From NCBI GenBank assembly GCA_020444505.1, contig JAHLKU010000011.1, positions 1-59,310 on the forward strand: 59,310 nucleotides of DNA, given 5' to 3'. Of the stretch, positions 27,844 to 44,668 are shown one piece after another. The notes under the pieces were generated by a model. The model did not search any database and was not told where the DNA came from. It saw only the letters and a list, made by a program, of their open reading frames with translations. This DNA is from Actinomycetota bacterium (lineage in GTDB: Bacteria > Actinomycetota > Acidimicrobiia > Spongiisociales > UBA11373). The first letter of the stretch is position 1. Every line of letters begins with the position of its first letter. Both the position numbers and the translations under genes were made by a program.

Positions 27844-27859
27844 CGGACGGCCGCTACGG
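27838..27859. terminator. Palindromic terminator containing both stop codons
   Basis: CCGTAGCGG-ACGG-CCGCTACGG is a perfect 9-bp stem. The TAG at 27841-27843 ends the rightward lipoprotein gene and the complementary TAG at 27854-27856 ends the leftward anti-sigma gene. Confidence 0.65.
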
Positions 27860-28729
27860 CAGGGTGATGACGACCGAGCAGTCCTCGGGGTCGAACGCCA
27901 CGAGGACGGTCCATGCCGCGTCCACGTACACGACCACGGCGAGGCCGTCGTCGATGGTCGCCGACACCTCGACGTACCCGGCACCCTCGCCGAGTGCCTT
28001 CTCGGCCTCGGCGCTGCAGTCGGCGGCGGCACGCACCGCCGGCTCGCCGTAGGCCTGGGCGGTCGCCTCCGGGCCCTGCTCGAACAGCGCACGCAGGCCC
28101 TCCTCGCCCTTCACCTCGGTGGCCGCGTCCTCTCCCTCCTCGGCGGTCGTGGTGGTGTCGGCGGCCGTGGTGGTGGTCATGGCCTCGGCCGAGCCGGCAA
28201 CCGGGGGGATGGTGCCGACGGTCGACTCCTCGGTGGGGGCGGGGGGCGTCTCCAGCATCTCCGTGGTGGCTTCACCGCCGTCGGTGGCGGTCGCCGAAGT
28301 GTCGGTGCCCTGCCGGCCCGCCTCGTCTTCGAAGACGGCGGCGACCGCGGAGGTGGTGCCGGCGGCGTCGTCGCTGCCGTCGGCGAGCATCAACCCCAGC
28401 ACCGGCACCGCCATGACGACCCCGGCGAGGCCGGCGGCGAACGCCAGCGCCGCCCACCGGGTGGGACGGCGGGAGGCGGGTGCCGCCGGGGAGGGAACCG
28501 CAGGCAGCGACAGGGCCCCGGCGACGGAGGCACGGAGGCCGGCGGACTCCTCGGCGGTCAGCGCCGCTGCGGGGAGGCCGGCGAGTGCGCCGAGGGCGGC
28601 ACGCTGGGAGGCCAGGTCGGCCGAGCACTCGGGGCATGCCGCGATCTCCGCCTCGGCGGAGGCGGCGAGGCCCTCGGCGAGAATCCCCTCGGCGAGGGCG
28701 GCGATGAGGTCGTGATCGTGGCTATGCAT
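27854..28729 (-). CDS. Membrane-anchored anti-sigma factor
   Basis: A 291-aa protein overlapping the ECF sigma gene by 8 nt. The N-terminal about 60 residues resemble an anti-sigma zinc-finger region with CPECSADL, but the His of the usual HxxxCxxC is Glu; His residues nearer the N-terminus (MHSHDHD) could substitute. A membrane helix follows (WAALAFAAGLAGVVMAVPVLGLML, about 113-136). The extracellular half is Thr/Ala/Glu-rich, then a small folded end containing CSAEAEKAL and DPEDCSVVITLP, with two Cys that may pair. It would hold the sigma factor at the membrane until an envelope or redox signal. A GTG at 28738 is an alternative start. Confidence 0.75.
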   Translation of the reverse strand: MHSHDHDLIAALAEGILAEGLAASAEAEIAACPECSADLASQRAALGALAGLPAAALTAEESAGLRASVAGALSLPAVPSPAAPASRRPTRWAALAFAAGLAGVVMAVPVLGLMLADGSDDAAGTTSAVAAVFEDEAGRQGTDTSATATDGGEATTEMLETPPAPTEESTVGTIPPVAGSAEAMTTTTAADTTTTAEEGEDAATEVKGEEGLRALFEQGPEATAQAYGEPAVRAAADCSAEAEKALGEGAGYVEVSATIDDGLAVVVYVDAAWTVLVAFDPEDCSVVITLP

Positions 28730-29303
28730 GTCGCTCACTGCTTCGATGCTCCGGACCGGCGCCCAGGTTCCCGAGAATCCCGGCCAGCAGCTTCCGGCCG
28801 CGGAAGACACGGCTCTTCACGGTGCCGACCGGGACCTCGAGGATATCGGCGACGGTCTGCAGCGCGAGGCCCTCGACGTCGGACAGCACCACCGCCGAGC
28901 GGAACTCGTCGGGGAGGCTGGCGAGCGCCGCCTCGAGGTCGGGCCGCAACTCGACGGCGGCGAGATGGTCGTCGGCCGTGCGGTCCGGCGGGTCGGTGGT
29001 CTCCGGCAGCGGGTCGGTGCGATGGCGCTTGGCGCGCCGGGCTGCGTCGTAGCAGGTGTTCACCGCCACCCGGTACAGCCAGGTGCTGAAGGCGGCGGTG
29101 CCGGAGAAGCGGTCGGCCTTGCGGAAGACGGTGACGAACGTCTCCTGGGTGGCGTCGAGGGCGGCGTCCCGGTCGCGCAGCATGCGCAGGCACACGCCGA
29201 ACACACGATCTTGGTGTGCTCTCATCAACTCGTCGAAGGCGGCGGTATCGCCCGTGAGGTACCGCTCGACGAGCGCCGCGTCCTGCTGGGCCCGATGCGT
29301 CAT
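28722..29303 (-). CDS. ECF sigma factor, SigM-like
   Basis: A 193-aa extracytoplasmic-function sigma factor. Region 2 shows FDELMRAHQDRVFGVCLRML and DATQETFVTVFRKADRF with STWLYRVAVNTCYDAARR; region 4 shows LPDEFRSAVVLSDVEGLALQ and VPVGTVKSRVFRGRKLL. Position next to trxB-trxA matches mycobacterial sigM, so a SigM-like role in envelope or oxidative stress is plausible but inferred. I start at the ATG at 29303, where TAACTT sits 7 nt upstream, indicating a leaderless transcript. The anti-sigma gene overlaps its end. Confidence 0.93.
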   Translation of the reverse strand: MTHRAQQDAALVERYLTGDTAAFDELMRAHQDRVFGVCLRMLRDRDAALDATQETFVTVFRKADRFSGTAAFSTWLYRVAVNTCYDAARRAKRHRTDPLPETTDPPDRTADDHLAAVELRPDLEAALASLPDEFRSAVVLSDVEGLALQTVADILEVPVGTVKSRVFRGRKLLAGILGNLGAGPEHRSSERHA

Positions 29304-29310
29304 CCGGGTC

Positions 29311-29316
29311 AAGTTA
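29311..29316 (-). promoter_or_regulatory. -10 box TAACTT, leaderless start
   Basis: TAACTT on the minus strand lies 7 nt before the sigma factor ATG at 29303. It may be recognised by the housekeeping sigma factor; no ECF-type -35 GGAAC is obvious. Confidence 0.45.
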
Positions 29317-29346
29317 CACCGGCTGGGATGCCGGGGCGCCGGCCCC

Positions 29347-30177
29347 TCAGGCCATCCGGTACACGACGCCGAGGGCGCCCGGGCCGGCATGGGTCCCGAC
29401 GATGGGCCCGATGCGCATCACCAGGGGCTCGGAACCGTGGACGGCCGCGACGTCGGCGAGGAACCCATCCAGATCGGCCGCCTCGCTGTGGATGACCCCG
29501 AGGCGGGCGACGGTGCCCTCCAACCCCTTCAGGTGGTCGAGCACGTCGTCGACGGCGCGCTTGCGGGTGCGCACCCGCCCCGCTGCGGTGACGGCACCTC
29601 CCTCGAAGGAGATGATCGGCTTCACGTCGAGGAGCCCGCCTACGAAGGCGGCGGCGGTGCCGATCCGGCCGCCCCGCTTGAGGAACTCCAGGGTGTCGAG
29701 GGTGGCGTACAGCGAGGTCGCCGCGCATGCCGCCCCTGCGACCTCGGCGACACCGTCGATGTCGCCGCCGGCCTCCGCGGCCTCGGCGGCCTCCAGCACG
29801 GCCAGCCCGAGCGCCCCGGAGACGAGCCGGCTGTCGATGACCCGCACCGGGATGCCATCCCACGCCTCGGCGGCGAGGGTGGCCGACTGGTGCGTGGCGC
29901 TGATGGCCGACGACATGCAGAGCACCACGATGCCGTCGGCGCCCTCGGCCTGCAGGCGCTCGTAGGCGTCGGTGAACTGGCCCACCGACGGGGCGGCCGT
30001 CTGCGGCGTGACGTCGCCGCCGAGCAGCTTCTCCCAGAACTCGTCGATGGTCAGGTCGGTGCGGTCCAGATAGTCGGTGTCGCCGAAGCGGACGGTGAGG
30101 CCGACGATGTGGATGCGGTGCCGGTCGAGGAGCGCCTCGGCCAGGTCGCAGCCGGAGTCGGTGATGATGCGGATCAT
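29347..30177 (-). CDS. DegV family fatty-acid-binding protein
   Basis: A 276-aa DegV protein. Family features are the opening IRIITDSGCDLAEALL, the PSVGQFTDAYERL segment, LCMSSAISATHQSA and LKRGGRIG followed by VKPIISFEGG. Characterised homologues bind a fatty acid and, as FakB, present it to a kinase for phospholipid synthesis; no FakA partner is seen in this window. The ATG at 30177 follows GGGAGG. It stands alone behind the sigma factor promoter. Confidence 0.93.
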   Translation of the reverse strand: MIRIITDSGCDLAEALLDRHRIHIVGLTVRFGDTDYLDRTDLTIDEFWEKLLGGDVTPQTAAPSVGQFTDAYERLQAEGADGIVVLCMSSAISATHQSATLAAEAWDGIPVRVIDSRLVSGALGLAVLEAAEAAEAGGDIDGVAEVAGAACAATSLYATLDTLEFLKRGGRIGTAAAFVGGLLDVKPIISFEGGAVTAAGRVRTRKRAVDDVLDHLKGLEGTVARLGVIHSEAADLDGFLADVAAVHGSEPLVMRIGPIVGTHAGPGALGVVYRMA

Positions 30178-36399: not shown

Positions 36400-38826
36400 T
36401 CAGTCCCCGACGACGAAGAACAGCCAGGTGCCGTCGGCGTCGATGCCGACCCGGTAGCCGATGAAGGCGCCGAACCCGGCATAGCCGTCCAGGTCTCCCT
36501 GGTCGTAGATCTCCGCCAGGGCCTGCCGATCGGCGTCGGAGACGGCGTCCCAGGAGTCGGCGGCGAAGGCCGCCGGCCACACCCACGGGGGTTCGGCACC
36601 GGGGGCCACTTCCTCGGCCCGTGCCGGGGAGGCGGGCAGGCGCAGGGTCTGCGCCAGCCACCACATCGGCCCGCGCTCCAGCTCCAGGGGCAGGTCGGAG
36701 CGGCGTTCCTCGGCGTCCCGCAGCCAGGCGATCGGGTCGTTCACCGGGTCGCCGAAGGAGACGGCGACCGATTGCTCGCCCACCATCGCCGACAGGGCCT
36801 CCCAGTCGCACGCCCTGGCGGCGGCGAACAGCGACTCGCGAGCCTCGGCCACGGCCTCGGGGAGGTCCTGGGGCGGCAGGTCGGCGGGAACGTCTGCGCC
36901 GGAGCAGGCCGGCGCGGCCGCCTCCGACGTCGCCGCCAGCCACACCGGGTGCTCCCGCACGTTGGTCTGGCTGCCGTCGCGAGCCGACGCCTCCCACACG
37001 ATCAGCGATCCCCTCTGGTCCTCGTCCACCTGGTAGGGGATCTCCACGGTCCAGTCGCCGCGGCACCCGGTGCCGCAGGTGGCGGTGGCGAACCCCTCCC
37101 AGAGGATGAGGCCGTCGGCGTCGGTGAGCGCCATCGAGACGGTGGCCTCGAACACGTCGGCCGTGCCGGAGGCCGTGAACGGGACGTTGCGGGCGACCGA
37201 CCAGTACGGCGGCGACTCGATCATGATCGGCGGCAGCAGGTCGTCGAAGTCGGCACGGGTGGCCGTGTCGCCGCCCCCGAAGGCGTAGTCGCCGTAGTCG
37301 CCGGCGCTGCCGTCCACGTGCAGGCGCACGGCGTCGATTCCGTCGAAGCGGGTGAGGGTGAAGACCACCTGGGCGAGGCGGGTGCGCATCGAGGCCGCAT
37401 CGCCGTCGGACAGGAACTCGCCGGACAGGTCGACGTCGGCGGTGCCGTCGCCTGCGATCGACAGGTCGAGCAGGCGGGTGCCCTCGGGGATGGCGGTGGT
37501 GATGGCAGGGACCGACGCCTGCTGGCCGGGGGTCGGGCCCTGCAGCAGCCACTGCAGCGCCTGGTACGGCTGGTCGGTCAGCGGATAGGAGAGGATCGCC
37601 GTCGGCCACGCCACCGGGACCAGGTGCGGTCCGGGGGTGAGGTGGGTGGCGTCGGCATCCATCAGCAGGTAGACGGCCAGTTCGGCGGGCACGTCGGCGG
37701 GCCCGGGGACCGTGGTGGCGGTTGCGCCGGCCGATGTGACCACGACCGGCGTGGTCCGGGTGTCGATCACCTCGACCCCGCTGCCGAACGCCTCGGCGAT
37801 CAGGTTGGCGCGGCCGGTGTACCCGAGGTCGGGGATCGTGACCTGCCAGACCCCCCAGTCCCACTCGCCGCGGCACTCGCTCCACGGCGTCCCGCAGGTG
37901 GCGGTGACGGTCTCCTGCCACAGCGTCTGCTCGTCGACCTCCAGCGTGAGGCGGACCTGGTTCCCCACCGAGTTGGCGACCCCGGAGGCGGTGAAGGGGA
38001 GGTCGATCGCGGCCCCGAACGACGGCGAGTCGACGAAGGCGAGGGACTGGTACCCCTCGAACGTGAGCCGGGTGACCTTCTCGTCCACGAAGGGGTGGTC
38101 GCCGAACTCGCTCTCGGGGATCAGGTCCAGGGACCCGGCCACCACGCCGCCGGTGAAGCGGCTGTCGTCGAGCAGGAACGCCACCGCATCGATGCCGTCG
38201 ATGCGGGTGAGCGTGAAGACGATCTGCGCCAGGCCGTCGGCGTCGGGGTACCCGAAGGCCGCCCACTGGTGCGGCACGAACACGGTGGCGACCGTGCGCG
38301 GGTCGTCGCCGGCACGGGTCAACTTGCTCACCGACAGGGGCGGGCCGTCGATGCCCCCGGGGATGGCGTTCCACAGCCCGGCGGACGCCTCGTCGGCGGT
38401 GGGCGTCTGGAGCAGCGCGGCGAGGGTGGCCTCAGCCTCTGCGAAGAGGCCGCCCTCCGGGTCGTCCGAGGGGGCCTCGAACGCCACCGTGCGGGGCACG
38501 GGCACCACCACGGCGCCCGTGTCGGTGCTCGAGAGCAGGTAGACCGCCGCGGCCCGTTCCACGGGTGCAACGACGGAGGCCGCGGTGGTGCTCGACGGGT
38601 CGGCGGCCTCGACGGTCCCGCCGTCGCGGCCCAGCCACAGCAGCCACCCGCCGCCCACCACGGTGACGGCGAGGGCGGCGGCGGCGGCGACGGCCCACGA
38701 CGGCCAGTGTCCCCGGGAGCGGCGTCCGGCCACGATGCGGTCGGCGGCGCCCATCGGGGCGGAGGGCAGGGCGTCGTCGGGGACGGGGTTGGCGTCCCGC
38801 AGGCGGTCGAACGGGTCGTGACTCAT
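36400..38826 (-). CDS. Anti-sigma-like membrane protein with duplicated GerMN and Gmad2 domains
   Basis: An 808-aa protein overlapping the upstream ECF sigma gene by 4 nt (ATGA). A short cytoplasmic N-terminus (DPFDRLRDANPVPDDAL, about 1-43) resembles the start of membrane anti-sigma factors and is followed by one helix (AVAAAAALAVTVVGGGWLLWL). Outside are two rounds of a GerMN-like domain (GLAQIVFTLTRIDGIDAVAF about 200; RLAQVVFTLTRFDGIDAVRL about 500) and a Gmad2-like immunoglobulin domain (PFTASGVAN, then PFTASGTADVFEATVSM, each with a Cys-containing TATCGT). The last 150 residues look NTF2-like. GerMN and Gmad2 are known from spore-germination and envelope proteins. A sensor controlling the sigma factor is the inference. 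Confidence 0.8.
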   Translation of the reverse strand: MSHDPFDRLRDANPVPDDALPSAPMGAADRIVAGRRSRGHWPSWAVAAAAALAVTVVGGGWLLWLGRDGGTVEAADPSSTTAASVVAPVERAAAVYLLSSTDTGAVVVPVPRTVAFEAPSDDPEGGLFAEAEATLAALLQTPTADEASAGLWNAIPGGIDGPPLSVSKLTRAGDDPRTVATVFVPHQWAAFGYPDADGLAQIVFTLTRIDGIDAVAFLLDDSRFTGGVVAGSLDLIPESEFGDHPFVDEKVTRLTFEGYQSLAFVDSPSFGAAIDLPFTASGVANSVGNQVRLTLEVDEQTLWQETVTATCGTPWSECRGEWDWGVWQVTIPDLGYTGRANLIAEAFGSGVEVIDTRTTPVVVTSAGATATTVPGPADVPAELAVYLLMDADATHLTPGPHLVPVAWPTAILSYPLTDQPYQALQWLLQGPTPGQQASVPAITTAIPEGTRLLDLSIAGDGTADVDLSGEFLSDGDAASMRTRLAQVVFTLTRFDGIDAVRLHVDGSAGDYGDYAFGGGDTATRADFDDLLPPIMIESPPYWSVARNVPFTASGTADVFEATVSMALTDADGLILWEGFATATCGTGCRGDWTVEIPYQVDEDQRGSLIVWEASARDGSQTNVREHPVWLAATSEAAAPACSGADVPADLPPQDLPEAVAEARESLFAAARACDWEALSAMVGEQSVAVSFGDPVNDPIAWLRDAEERRSDLPLELERGPMWWLAQTLRLPASPARAEEVAPGAEPPWVWPAAFAADSWDAVSDADRQALAEIYDQGDLDGYAGFGAFIGYRVGIDADGTWLFFVVGD

Positions 38827-39341
38827 GGGGCGTCCCCTTCCATCGACGAGGCGAGCCGGGCGCGCGCCCGATGGAGGCGCACCGCGGCGGCATTGGCGGA
38901 GATGCCGAGGACGGCGCCGATCCGGTCGGGGCCGAGCCCCTCCCAGGCGGCCAGGAGCAGGATCTCCCGGTCGTCGTCCCGCAGCCCGTCGAGGGCGGCG
39001 ACCACGTCGGGCGCCGGCTCGACGGCGGGGCGGGCGAGCGTCTCCTCGGCGACCCTGGCGGCCAGCCTGCCGGCCCGGCGGCGGGACCGCTGCAGGTTGG
39101 CGGTGACGTTGCGGGCCACCCCGTACAGCCACGGCAGGGTGCCGGGCTCGTCGGGGACGCGGCGCAGCCGCCGCCATGCGACGGTGAACGTCTCGGCGGC
39201 GACGTCGGCGGCGTCGTCCCGCCCCACCCGCCGGGCGGCGTAGCCGTACACGGCGGGGTAGTGGCGGGCGAACACCTCGCGGAACCGCTGCTCGGCCTGT
39301 GGCGCCGCGCCGGCATGGGACGCCGTCATCGTGCTCTCCAT
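38823..39341 (-). CDS. ECF-type RNA polymerase sigma factor
   Basis: A 172-aa sigma-70 family protein. Region 2 is ARHYPAVYGYAARRVGRDDA and AETFTVAWRRLRRV with WLYGVARNVTANLQRSRRR; region 4 is DDREILLLAAWEGLGPDRIG and SANAAAVRLHRARARL. The ATG at 39341 is used; an ATG at 39329 with GGAGAG 4 nt upstream is equally possible. A TATCGT box at 39378-39383 may be the promoter. It is coupled to the GerMN protein gene, which is presumably its membrane regulator. Confidence 0.92.
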   Translation of the reverse strand: MESTMTASHAGAAPQAEQRFREVFARHYPAVYGYAARRVGRDDAADVAAETFTVAWRRLRRVPDEPGTLPWLYGVARNVTANLQRSRRRAGRLAARVAEETLARPAVEPAPDVVAALDGLRDDDREILLLAAWEGLGPDRIGAVLGISANAAAVRLHRARARLASSMEGDAP

Positions 39342-39412
39342 ACCGGCTTCATGTCCGGCACCTCGTCGGGATTACCGACGATACGGCCGTCCCGGCACTT
39401 CGGGCGGGCTCC

Positions 39413-41886: not shown

Positions 41887-44541
41887 CTACTGCCCGAAGT
41901 AGTGGACCGGGTCGGTGGCCTCGGTCCGTCTCCCGTCGTTGTCCCAGGCGAACACCTCGACCTCGGCGGCGTACTGGCCGGATTGCGCAGGCACGATCGC
42001 CATGCAGACCAGGGTCTGGCCGGCGTTGAGCACGTCGTCGCCGGTGCACTGGATGTCGGACGGCGACAGGCCGGGGTGCTCGATGGTGATGTCGTTCTCC
42101 CACGTGTTGCCGGCGTTGACGATGGAGTACCGGAAGGTCACGTAGTTCCCGGCCCTCACGGTCGGCCCCGGCGGGGTGTCGGCGTTGTCGCGGTTCACCG
42201 ACACCTCGACCCGGAGGTCGTGGATGCGGGGTTCGTCGCGGGTGTGCCAGTGGTACGGGTCGGAGTCGCTCACGCCCGTGCCGGCGGCGTCGGCGGTCAC
42301 CGTGCCGGTGCCGGCGTGGTTGCCCCAGCGGGTGACGTCGGTGTCGTAGCAGGTCATCGCCTCGCCGACGGCGAGGGTGTCCTGCGGGCAGTCCACGGCG
42401 CCGCGCCGGCTGTCGTCGACGGCGACGCCGGTGAGCGGGGTCTGGCCGGTGTTGGTGACCACGTAGGAGAAGTGGATGGTGTCGCCGGGGGTCAGCAGGC
42501 GCGGGCCCGGCGCGTGGTCGGCGTCCCAGCCCTCTACGTAGGCCTGGATGCTCACGTCGGGGGCGACGGCCGTGCCGAAGAAGTGGTACCCGGCCACGTC
42601 CTCGATCTCGGCGCCGTCGCCGTCCCACGTCCTGGCCAGGGCCTCCCCGGTGTTGTACGAGGCGGCGACGACGGCCGTGCGGGTGCAGGTGATGGAGGCG
42701 CCGACGGGGAGGGCGCGCTCGGGGCAGTCCACCCGGCCGATCGCCGGATCCCACATCCACAGTGCCCACAGGTCGGTGCCGCCGGTGTTGGTGGCGACGT
42801 AATCGATGGTCACGGTGCCGCCCATCACCGCAGCGGGGCCGGGCGGGACGCCGGCCGGCGTGCCGTCCACCAGGATCTCGAGCGAGAGGCCGGGCACCGG
42901 CGGGAGGGTGGTGGTCGTGGTGGTGGTGCCGCCGGGGAGGGTGGTGGTCGTCGTGGTCGTCACCGGGACGGTGGCGTAGTTCGCCGTGCCGAGGGCCGCC
43001 GCCTCGGCGCCGTCGCCCGCCCAGGCGGTGGCGTCCACGCCGGCCTGGTAGACGTCCCGGTCGGCGGTGGCGGTGACGGTGCAGGTGACGGCCTCGCCCA
43101 CCCGGATGGTGCGGGTGGGACAGTCCGCCCTGCCGCGGCCGTTGTGCCAGACGATCAGCGAGTAGAGGTCGCGGGTGCCGGTGTTGGTGACGGTGTGGGC
43201 CCAGGTGATCGCCTCGCCGGGGGAGAGTTGCGGGCCGGGGGCGGTGCCGGCGTCCATGCCGTTCACCGCGGTGGCCATGTCGAGGCCGACCACCGGTGCG
43301 GGAGGGGAGGTGGTCGTGGTCGTGGAGCCCGGGAGCGTCGTCGTCGTCACCGGGGGCACGGTGGTGGTCGTGCCCGTGTCGATGGTGGTGTAGCCGGCGG
43401 TGCCCTCGTCGGCGGCCTCGGTGCCGTCCCCGGCGTAGGCGAAGGCGCTGACGTCGGCGTCGTACCGATCGAGGTCGGCGGTCCCGGTGACGGTGCACGT
43501 GACGGAGTCGCCGATCCGCAGGGTGCGGGTGGGGCAGTCGGCCCTGCCGTGACCCTCGTGCCACACGATCAGCGACCACAGGTCCTGGTCGCCGGTGTTG
43601 GTGACGGTGTGGGCCCAGGTCACCGCCTCGCCGGGGGTGAGCAGCGGCCCGGGAGGCGTGCCGGCGTCCTGCCCGTTGGCCGCGGTGGCCAGGCCGATGG
43701 CCGGCCCGGTGGCGGGGGTCGTGGTGGTGGTCGCCGGCACCGTCGTGGTCGTGGTGCTGGTGGTGGGTGCCGGGGCCGTGGTGGACGTCGTGGCGGCCGG
43801 CACCGTCGTGGTCGTGGTCGTCGGTGCGGTCGTGGTGGTGGTCGTGGCCGGGAGCGTCGTGGTGGTGGCGGGAGGAGCCGTGGTCGTGGTGGTGGGTGCC
43901 GGAGCGGAGGCCACGGTGAGGCGCAGGTCGTCCACGGCCCCGGCGCCGCCCAGGTCCACGGTCAACTCGACCACCCCGTCGATGCCCAGGTCCACCCGGC
44001 GCCAGCGGTTGTCGCCGGTGGGCCAGGCGCGGGCCGCGCCGGTGGCGCCCGTGGTGTCCACCCAGGCGATCCGGGCGCTGCGGAGGTCGGTGTCGGCGAC
44101 CACGATCGACTCCACCCGGACGCTGCCCGCGTCGAGGGTGGTGAAGTCGAAGGTGATGAGGCCGTCCTCGGCGTCGTCGGGGTCGGCGGCGTCGCCGTCC
44201 TCGGAGACGATCAACAGGTTGCCGCGATCGGGGAAGAACAGGTCCGAGTCGCCGCCGGTGCAGTCGCGGCGGGTGCCGCCGGGCTCGCAGGCGCCGTCGA
44301 ACACCATGGCCGCCGGGGTGGTGGGGGCGGCGCGACGGCGGCCGAACACGGCGATGGACCCGTCGACGGGGCCGGAGATGCCGGCGCCCGTGGAGACGGC
44401 GGTCACGGTGGAGCCCTCGGGGAGGCTCTCGAAATCCACCGTCACCGTGGTCCCGGAGCTCTCGGCTCCGGCGGTGAGGCCCCCGACGACGAGGGAAGCG
44501 CCCAGGAGCAGGGCGGCGATCGTCCTGGCATACGTGCGCAC
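41887..44541 (-). CDS. Secreted surface protein with Thr-rich linkers and five Ig-like repeats
   Basis: An 884-aa exported protein. The GTG at 44541 follows GGAGGG and opens a signal peptide (ARTIAALLLGASLVVGGLTA). A first domain (about 27-205, FDFTTLDAGSVRVESIVVAD) resembles a carbohydrate-binding or PEP-CTERM-type beta-sandwich. After a Thr/Pro linker come five related units of roughly 100 residues, each with PPGP-L, a TVTNTG-like strand and a Cys pair (DCPTRT..VTCT). More TTTT linkers separate the first three. These resemble DUF11/DUF7507-type stalk domains. No sortase motif or C-terminal anchor is seen. Probably an envelope stalk or adhesin. Confidence 0.8.
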   Translation of the reverse strand: MRTYARTIAALLLGASLVVGGLTAGAESSGTTVTVDFESLPEGSTVTAVSTGAGISGPVDGSIAVFGRRRAAPTTPAAMVFDGACEPGGTRRDCTGGDSDLFFPDRGNLLIVSEDGDAADPDDAEDGLITFDFTTLDAGSVRVESIVVADTDLRSARIAWVDTTGATGAARAWPTGDNRWRRVDLGIDGVVELTVDLGGAGAVDDLRLTVASAPAPTTTTTAPPATTTTLPATTTTTTAPTTTTTTVPAATTSTTAPAPTTSTTTTTVPATTTTTPATGPAIGLATAANGQDAGTPPGPLLTPGEAVTWAHTVTNTGDQDLWSLIVWHEGHGRADCPTRTLRIGDSVTCTVTGTADLDRYDADVSAFAYAGDGTEAADEGTAGYTTIDTGTTTTVPPVTTTTLPGSTTTTTSPPAPVVGLDMATAVNGMDAGTAPGPQLSPGEAITWAHTVTNTGTRDLYSLIVWHNGRGRADCPTRTIRVGEAVTCTVTATADRDVYQAGVDATAWAGDGAEAAALGTANYATVPVTTTTTTTLPGGTTTTTTTLPPVPGLSLEILVDGTPAGVPPGPAAVMGGTVTIDYVATNTGGTDLWALWMWDPAIGRVDCPERALPVGASITCTRTAVVAASYNTGEALARTWDGDGAEIEDVAGYHFFGTAVAPDVSIQAYVEGWDADHAPGPRLLTPGDTIHFSYVVTNTGQTPLTGVAVDDSRRGAVDCPQDTLAVGEAMTCYDTDVTRWGNHAGTGTVTADAAGTGVSDSDPYHWHTRDEPRIHDLRVEVSVNRDNADTPPGPTVRAGNYVTFRYSIVNAGNTWENDITIEHPGLSPSDIQCTGDDVLNAGQTLVCMAIVPAQSGQYAAEVEVFAWDNDGRRTEATDPVHYFGQ

Positions 44542-44668
44542 GGGGTCCCTCCGTGTCGGCAACACAACTACTTTGCGTGGTCACGATACTGCTGAGAGCG
44601 CGAGCCGCAAGGGTCAACTGCGTCCCGGAGGAGTGACTAGTCCCGGGTCCGGCCCCGTCCGCCGGCTC

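Follow-up and report, generated by a model that had tools for sequence, protein, structure and literature searches.

A predicted autoregulated ECF sigma/anti-sigma module with a GerMN-Gmad2 exterior in a family of Actinomycetota

Genes and domains at the locus

We describe an ECF sigma factor gene and its membrane-protein partner in a 59,310-nucleotide stretch of DNA from an Actinomycetota bacterium (contig JAHLKU010000011.1); this whole stretch is called the window here. The pair follows a flavodoxin gene, and both genes lie on the minus strand, as do all features given below. The sigma gene (38823..39341) encodes 172 amino acids and the partner gene (36400..38826) 808, and their stop and start codons overlap in the sequence ATGA (38823..38826). 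This overlap, which predicts translational coupling, had been named in an original prediction made from the letters of the DNA and was confirmed. The sigma factor was assigned with Pfam and NCBIfam and by its adjacent homologues; it matches Sigma70_r2 (E 4e-10) and Sigma70_r4_2 (E 9e-11), and regions 2 and 4 (PF04542, PF08281) stand alone, with no further promoter-binding domain, as in ECF sigma factors. Its homologues adjoin the partner gene in 12 relatives (identity 54-72%).

The partner, predicted to be a membrane anti-sigma factor, begins with a cytoplasmic tail of 42 residues (residues 1-42; 38701..38826), followed by a transmembrane helix (residues 43-66; 38629..38700) and a Ser/Thr linker (residues 67-92; 38551..38628). 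The helix is the single hydrophobic segment of the protein (residues 45-63, KD 2.0) and was modelled as a helix over residues 43-66 by AF2, so that about 742 residues lie outside, in agreement with the single helix and the roughly 740 external residues predicted at the outset. The exterior consists of two GerMN-Gmad2 pairs and, at the end, a domain of some 170 residues. The first pair comprises a divergent GerMN copy (38161..38544; PF10646, 31 bits) and a Gmad2 domain with approximate bounds (37735..38034), placed by two PF10648 stretches and by beta strands in the AF2 model; the second comprises a GerMN domain (37297..37689; PF10646, 79.5 bits at 37306-37608) and a Gmad2 domain (36937..37227; best PF10648 stretch at residues 547-619). 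The predicted duplication thus holds, as PF10646 and PF10648 each match twice, both passing the curated cut-offs (whole-protein E values of 3e-29 and 9e-24). The GerMN part has a relative of solved structure in GerM (6gzb; sequence E 6.6e-15, Foldseek E 1e-6), and the protein is the sole GerMN protein found by Pfam search in the source genome (2.54 Mb, 103 contigs).

The C-terminal exported domain (36403..36906) had been described as NTF2-like. It is indeed a compact domain, modelled with confidence (pLDDT 90.8), and two cysteines are invariant in an alignment of 22 members. The NTF2 label is weak: the best Foldseek matches are ketosteroid-isomerase/NTF2-like folds with E 0.26 or worse and TM at most 0.46, DUF4440 was matched in 4 of 22 relatives (best E 0.0013), and the window's own copy has no Pfam match. 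The domain set (36403-36906 of the window and L040-L052) belongs to no Pfam family; the domain recurs in ECF-linked membrane proteins (L045, L046, L047, L049), several of the ECF-linked carriers being unrelated, and in lipoproteins of the order.

The tail was modelled by AF2 at low confidence as two short helices (residues 7-12 and 25-32), with pLDDT below 50 over residues 19-43. Neither the tail nor the whole partner matched an anti-sigma family in Pfam or NCBIfam. In particular, there was no match to an HMM of the class I anti-sigma domain (ASDI), which has four helices and is of zinc-binding or RskA/RseA type, the tail being 42 residues long and free of cysteine, and no Pfam match to an RsgI domain. 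The LpqB equivalog model scored 19.9 bits against a cut-off of 802, and the neighbouring gene encodes an ECF sigma factor, so the partner is not an LpqB.

Two other parts of the window may be mentioned. Near the sigma operon, a gene at 41887-44565 (-) encodes a large protein that looks exported and is likely a surface protein, in which DUF7507 domains are repeated and long linkers are rich in Thr. A second ECF sigma gene (28725-29390, -) is overlapped by an open reading frame without a Pfam match (27857-28810, -), and these two are possibly another sigma/partner pair.

Conservation of the pair and its promoter

A survey of co-occurrence, proposed with the original prediction, found the pair in single copy in 13 of the 14 family genomes and adjacent every time. 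The four-nucleotide overlap is kept in 12 of the 13 pairs and is reduced to one nucleotide in the sister species G001. A model of the tail gave one full match in each of these 13 genomes (102-123 bits); outside the family, its best score among 138 genomes of the order was 36 bits. In the alignment of the 13 sequences, the tail residues M1, D4, F6, N13, P14, P21, P24, A28, R30 and I31 are invariant, and mean identity is 56% in the tail vs 27% in the poorly conserved linker. The tail, called anti-sigma-like in the original prediction, is thus conserved together with the sigma factor, and it matches no anti-sigma model.

The exterior varies. Compared with the other members, the proteins of G002 and G010 are 54.7% identical in the tail, 56.5% in the sigma factor, 31% over the Gmad2 part and 25% in the C-terminal domain, and neither of these two partner proteins has a Gmad2 match in Pfam. 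As judged from these alignments, the exterior was replaced in G002 and G010, with sigma factor, tail and promoter left in place. The G006 partner carries additional outer sequence, and in another family G085 encodes a sister sigma factor with a protein made of tail, transmembrane segment and C-terminal domain, without GerMN. In a tree of the pairs, the divergent first GerMN-Gmad2 pair of G000 and G001 forms its own branch and those of G005 both group with the single pairs; a second pair seems to have arisen twice. A constant inner part joined to an exchanged outer part is the pattern expected of a putative anti-sigma sensor.

When the neighbourhoods of the window, of G002/G010 and of other genera were compared, at least three distinct arrangements were found, with the sigma gene and its partner alone in common. 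General synteny therefore does not account for the conservation of promoter and tail. A Tad/Flp pilus-type cluster (T2SSE, T2SSF, TadE) lies directly upstream of the pair in at least six genera (L035, L036, L037, L038, L039 and L054, from G005, G004, G011, G008, G009 and G007), and TadE of the source genome is encoded on contigs other than the window's; a functional tie of the pair to surface pili is possible.

A predicted autoregulatory promoter (39350..39375) precedes the sigma gene, with a -35 element GTAATC (39375-39370), a 12-nucleotide spacer and a -10 element CGGACAT (39357-39351) that ends 9 nucleotides before the start codon. A search for a promoter motif of the sigma factor had also been proposed, and it succeeded: all 13 sigma starts in the family are preceded by GTAATC-N12/13-CGGACAT at about 9-10 nucleotides from the ATG or GTG, with the -35 variant GTAAGC in G002 and G010. 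By eye, the DNA further upstream is not comparably conserved. The two elements differ from the AAC and CGT boxes usual for ECF sigma factors (PMC8103513). From this arrangement we infer a self-activating operon, autoregulation being common but not obligatory among ECF sigma factors, and probably a leaderless start: transcription beginning about 7 nucleotides after the -10 box would give an mRNA whose 5' end lies at the start codon or immediately ahead of it.

Regulon members were looked for with pattern searches alone. The exact motif occurs once in the source genome, at the sigma start; the sigma promoter was found in all nine pair-bearing family genomes of a multi-genome pattern search, and the same search found no motif in G003, the family genome that lacks the pair. 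Sites with up to two mismatches in the source genome were rejected as regulon members (3 extra sites vs 1 in a reversed control), as were matches in G017 and a second match in G018, which are not convincingly placed at a gene start and whose number agrees with the control rate. The regulon of the source genome may therefore be its own operon alone. In G001, the motif also stands 40-41 nucleotides upstream of two further start codons, each preceded by a sequence resembling a ribosome-binding site; these genes encode an exported protein of 398 residues that combines GerMN-Gmad2 with RTX repeats, and a 450-residue lipoprotein. A larger regulon reached through homologues of this lipoprotein was rejected, since contig C72, which carries the source-genome homologue (32% identity), showed no motif. 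Two loci, L065 (G001:C190) and L067 (G001:C245), were noted for the GerMN-Gmad2 protein with RTX calcium-binding repeats under the shared motif; at the second contig end the promoter region is present again, perhaps as a repeat or through duplication in the assembly. In G018, the motif precedes another gene, confirmed as an ECF sigma gene; its partner protein has one helix and differs in its exterior.

GerMN-Gmad2 proteins beyond the family

Relatives were found in many Actinomycetota and Chloroflexota by an alignment query of the genome contigs; a query with the single protein returned none. At most of 80 GerMN-Gmad2 loci from GTDB genomes, the product is a short exported protein and no sigma gene accompanies it. 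Three ECF types other than that of the family (L152/L168; L170; L172/L173/L195 with L031) are directly followed by a GerMN-Gmad2 protein that has one helix and a different tail. In a sigma tree, the GerMN-Gmad2-coupled types lie apart, with ECF factors lacking GerMN between them, in positions that long branches make unsure in detail. The coupled factors thus belong to four separate sigma types, and repeated recruitment of the ectodomain is probable. At 11 further loci in Chloroflexota and Actinomycetota (L134, L135, L136, L139, L140, L141, L144, L153, L180, L184 and L187), a histidine kinase gene (HisKA and HATPase, with HAMP in 10) lies upstream of the GerMN-Gmad2 gene. Outside ECF pairs the two domains occur in lipoproteins, some of them encoded next to histidine kinases. 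Long open reading frames ahead of some GerMN loci were considered as fusions and rejected, as they looked like shadow frames.

The original prediction treated it as a surprise that spore-germination domains occur in a lineage not expected to sporulate. This point falls, since the same Pfam search found GerMN in Thermus, Deinobacterium, Thermotoga and Corynebacterium, and GerMN is thus no marker of spores. With GerMN present in these search controls and in many Actinomycetota and Chloroflexota, sporulation was rejected as the topic of the locus.

A predicted envelope-sensing module

The locus is, we consider likely on the comparative sequence evidence, an autoregulated ECF sigma/anti-sigma module in which the tail holds the sigma factor, the exterior binds a component of the envelope, and release frees the sigma factor. 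The 42-residue tail would sequester the sigma factor at the membrane, probably in the manner of the short two-helix tails of class II anti-sigma factors such as CnrY of Cupriavidus metallidurans, whose cytoplasmic tail wraps its sigma factor (PMC7406223). The GerMN-Gmad2 pairs and the C-terminal domain would bind the wall, a surface polymer or a partner protein, and a change in this binding would free the sigma factor, most likely by proteolysis of the membrane anchor. Such release would probably be intramembrane proteolysis, the commonest release route of membrane anti-sigma factors (PMC8999054); an S2P-type protease is present in the source genome, as it is universally, and so lends weak support. 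The freed sigma factor would then initiate transcription at GTAATC-N12/13-CGGACAT, turning on its own operon and, in some species, also genes whose products are exported. We infer here the binding by the tail, the direction of control, the ligand and the proteolysis, as we do the leaderless start.

The signal-sensing anti-sigma factor of the original prediction thus stands as the best reading of linkage, coupling, conserved tail and variable exterior, even though no known anti-sigma domain was recognised. That last point, together with the low confidence of the tail model and the usual export of GerMN-Gmad2 proteins without a sigma factor, would also suit an envelope protein that is co-transcribed with the sigma gene without being its inhibitor; control of the sigma factor would then lie in its own level or in a different protein, and the tail would serve membrane insertion or another cytoplasmic contact. 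We regard this as improbable: the tail is conserved as well as the sigma factor and survives exchange of the exterior, membrane insertion would demand less than the invariant residues D4, F6, N13, P14, P21, P24, A28, R30 and I31, and an envelope role could be met by a lipoprotein anchor. Chance adjacency is harder still to uphold. Neutral hitch-hiking of neighbouring genes would be favoured by small genomes and short intergenic distances, yet it is contradicted by the conserved linkage: at least three different neighbourhoods hold this pair, the ATGA overlap occurs in 12 of 13 cases, and membrane-anchored GerMN-Gmad2 proteins accompany each of four sigma types. We give it next to no weight.

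Closer to the preferred reading is an anti-sigma factor of dual action, in which sigma activity also requires the tail that proteolysis has freed; RskA is reported to have such a dual role (PMC7509140). An invariant tail motif and strict coupling would be equally expected here, and no observation separates dual action from simple inhibition; we see only a slim chance that it applies.

The module of sigma factor and predicted inhibitory partner resembles the canonical pairs of ECF sigma factor and membrane anti-sigma factor (RpoE-RseA, SigW-RsiW and SigK-RskA) in its two-domain sigma factor, its co-transcribed one-helix membrane partner and its predicted positive autoregulation. It differs from them in a tail of about 42 residues without a zinc-binding or other recognised class I domain, and in its GerMN-Gmad2 exterior. 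Any likeness to CnrY lies in tail length and in the two short helices of a low-confidence model; exterior and lineage differ. The RsgI anti-sigma-I factors of Clostridium thermocellum (PMC12203970, PMC4711584) likewise join a cytoplasmic part and a membrane helix to exchangeable outer sensor domains, but the sigma factor here is ECF and not SigI, the outer domains are GerMN-Gmad2 and not carbohydrate-binding modules, and the partner has no RsgI domain match. In the MtrAB-LpqB three-component system, LpqB interacts with MtrB and reduces its activity; it is, as the partner is predicted to be, an exported GerMN protein with a modulating effect on its signalling neighbour (PMC5845573), and the several GerMN-Gmad2 genes that follow histidine kinases are parallel to LpqB-MtrB. 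Unlike the partner, LpqB is a lipoprotein, and its target is a kinase. GerM of Bacillus subtilis shares the tandem GerMN domains (6gzb), but is a sporulation protein without tail, Gmad2 domains or sigma partner. A literature search found no paper that joins GerMN with an anti-sigma factor and an ECF sigma factor; the main ECF re-classification paper lay outside its coverage, and the group tables of that paper may describe the pair.

GerMN and Gmad2 occur widely in organisms that form no spores, and what they do there is largely unexplained. This locus links them to a signalling output whose promoter is sharply defined and would provide a reporter for what the domains sense. A wider reading, offered tentatively and as rather doubtful, takes GerMN-Gmad2 as a general input module for reading the envelope, which several ECF types would have taken up independently of one another and which was also recruited next to histidine kinases. 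The domain is common to this group's sensor and to an apparently sigma-controlled gene (that for the GerMN-Gmad2-RTX protein of the sister species); on this reading, the exported product could compete with the sensor for one ligand and so close a feedback loop. The probable repeated recruitment by unrelated ECF types suggests that one-helix anti-sigma proteins may swap their outer sensors without losing tail or promoter, as RsgI swaps its sugar-binding modules.
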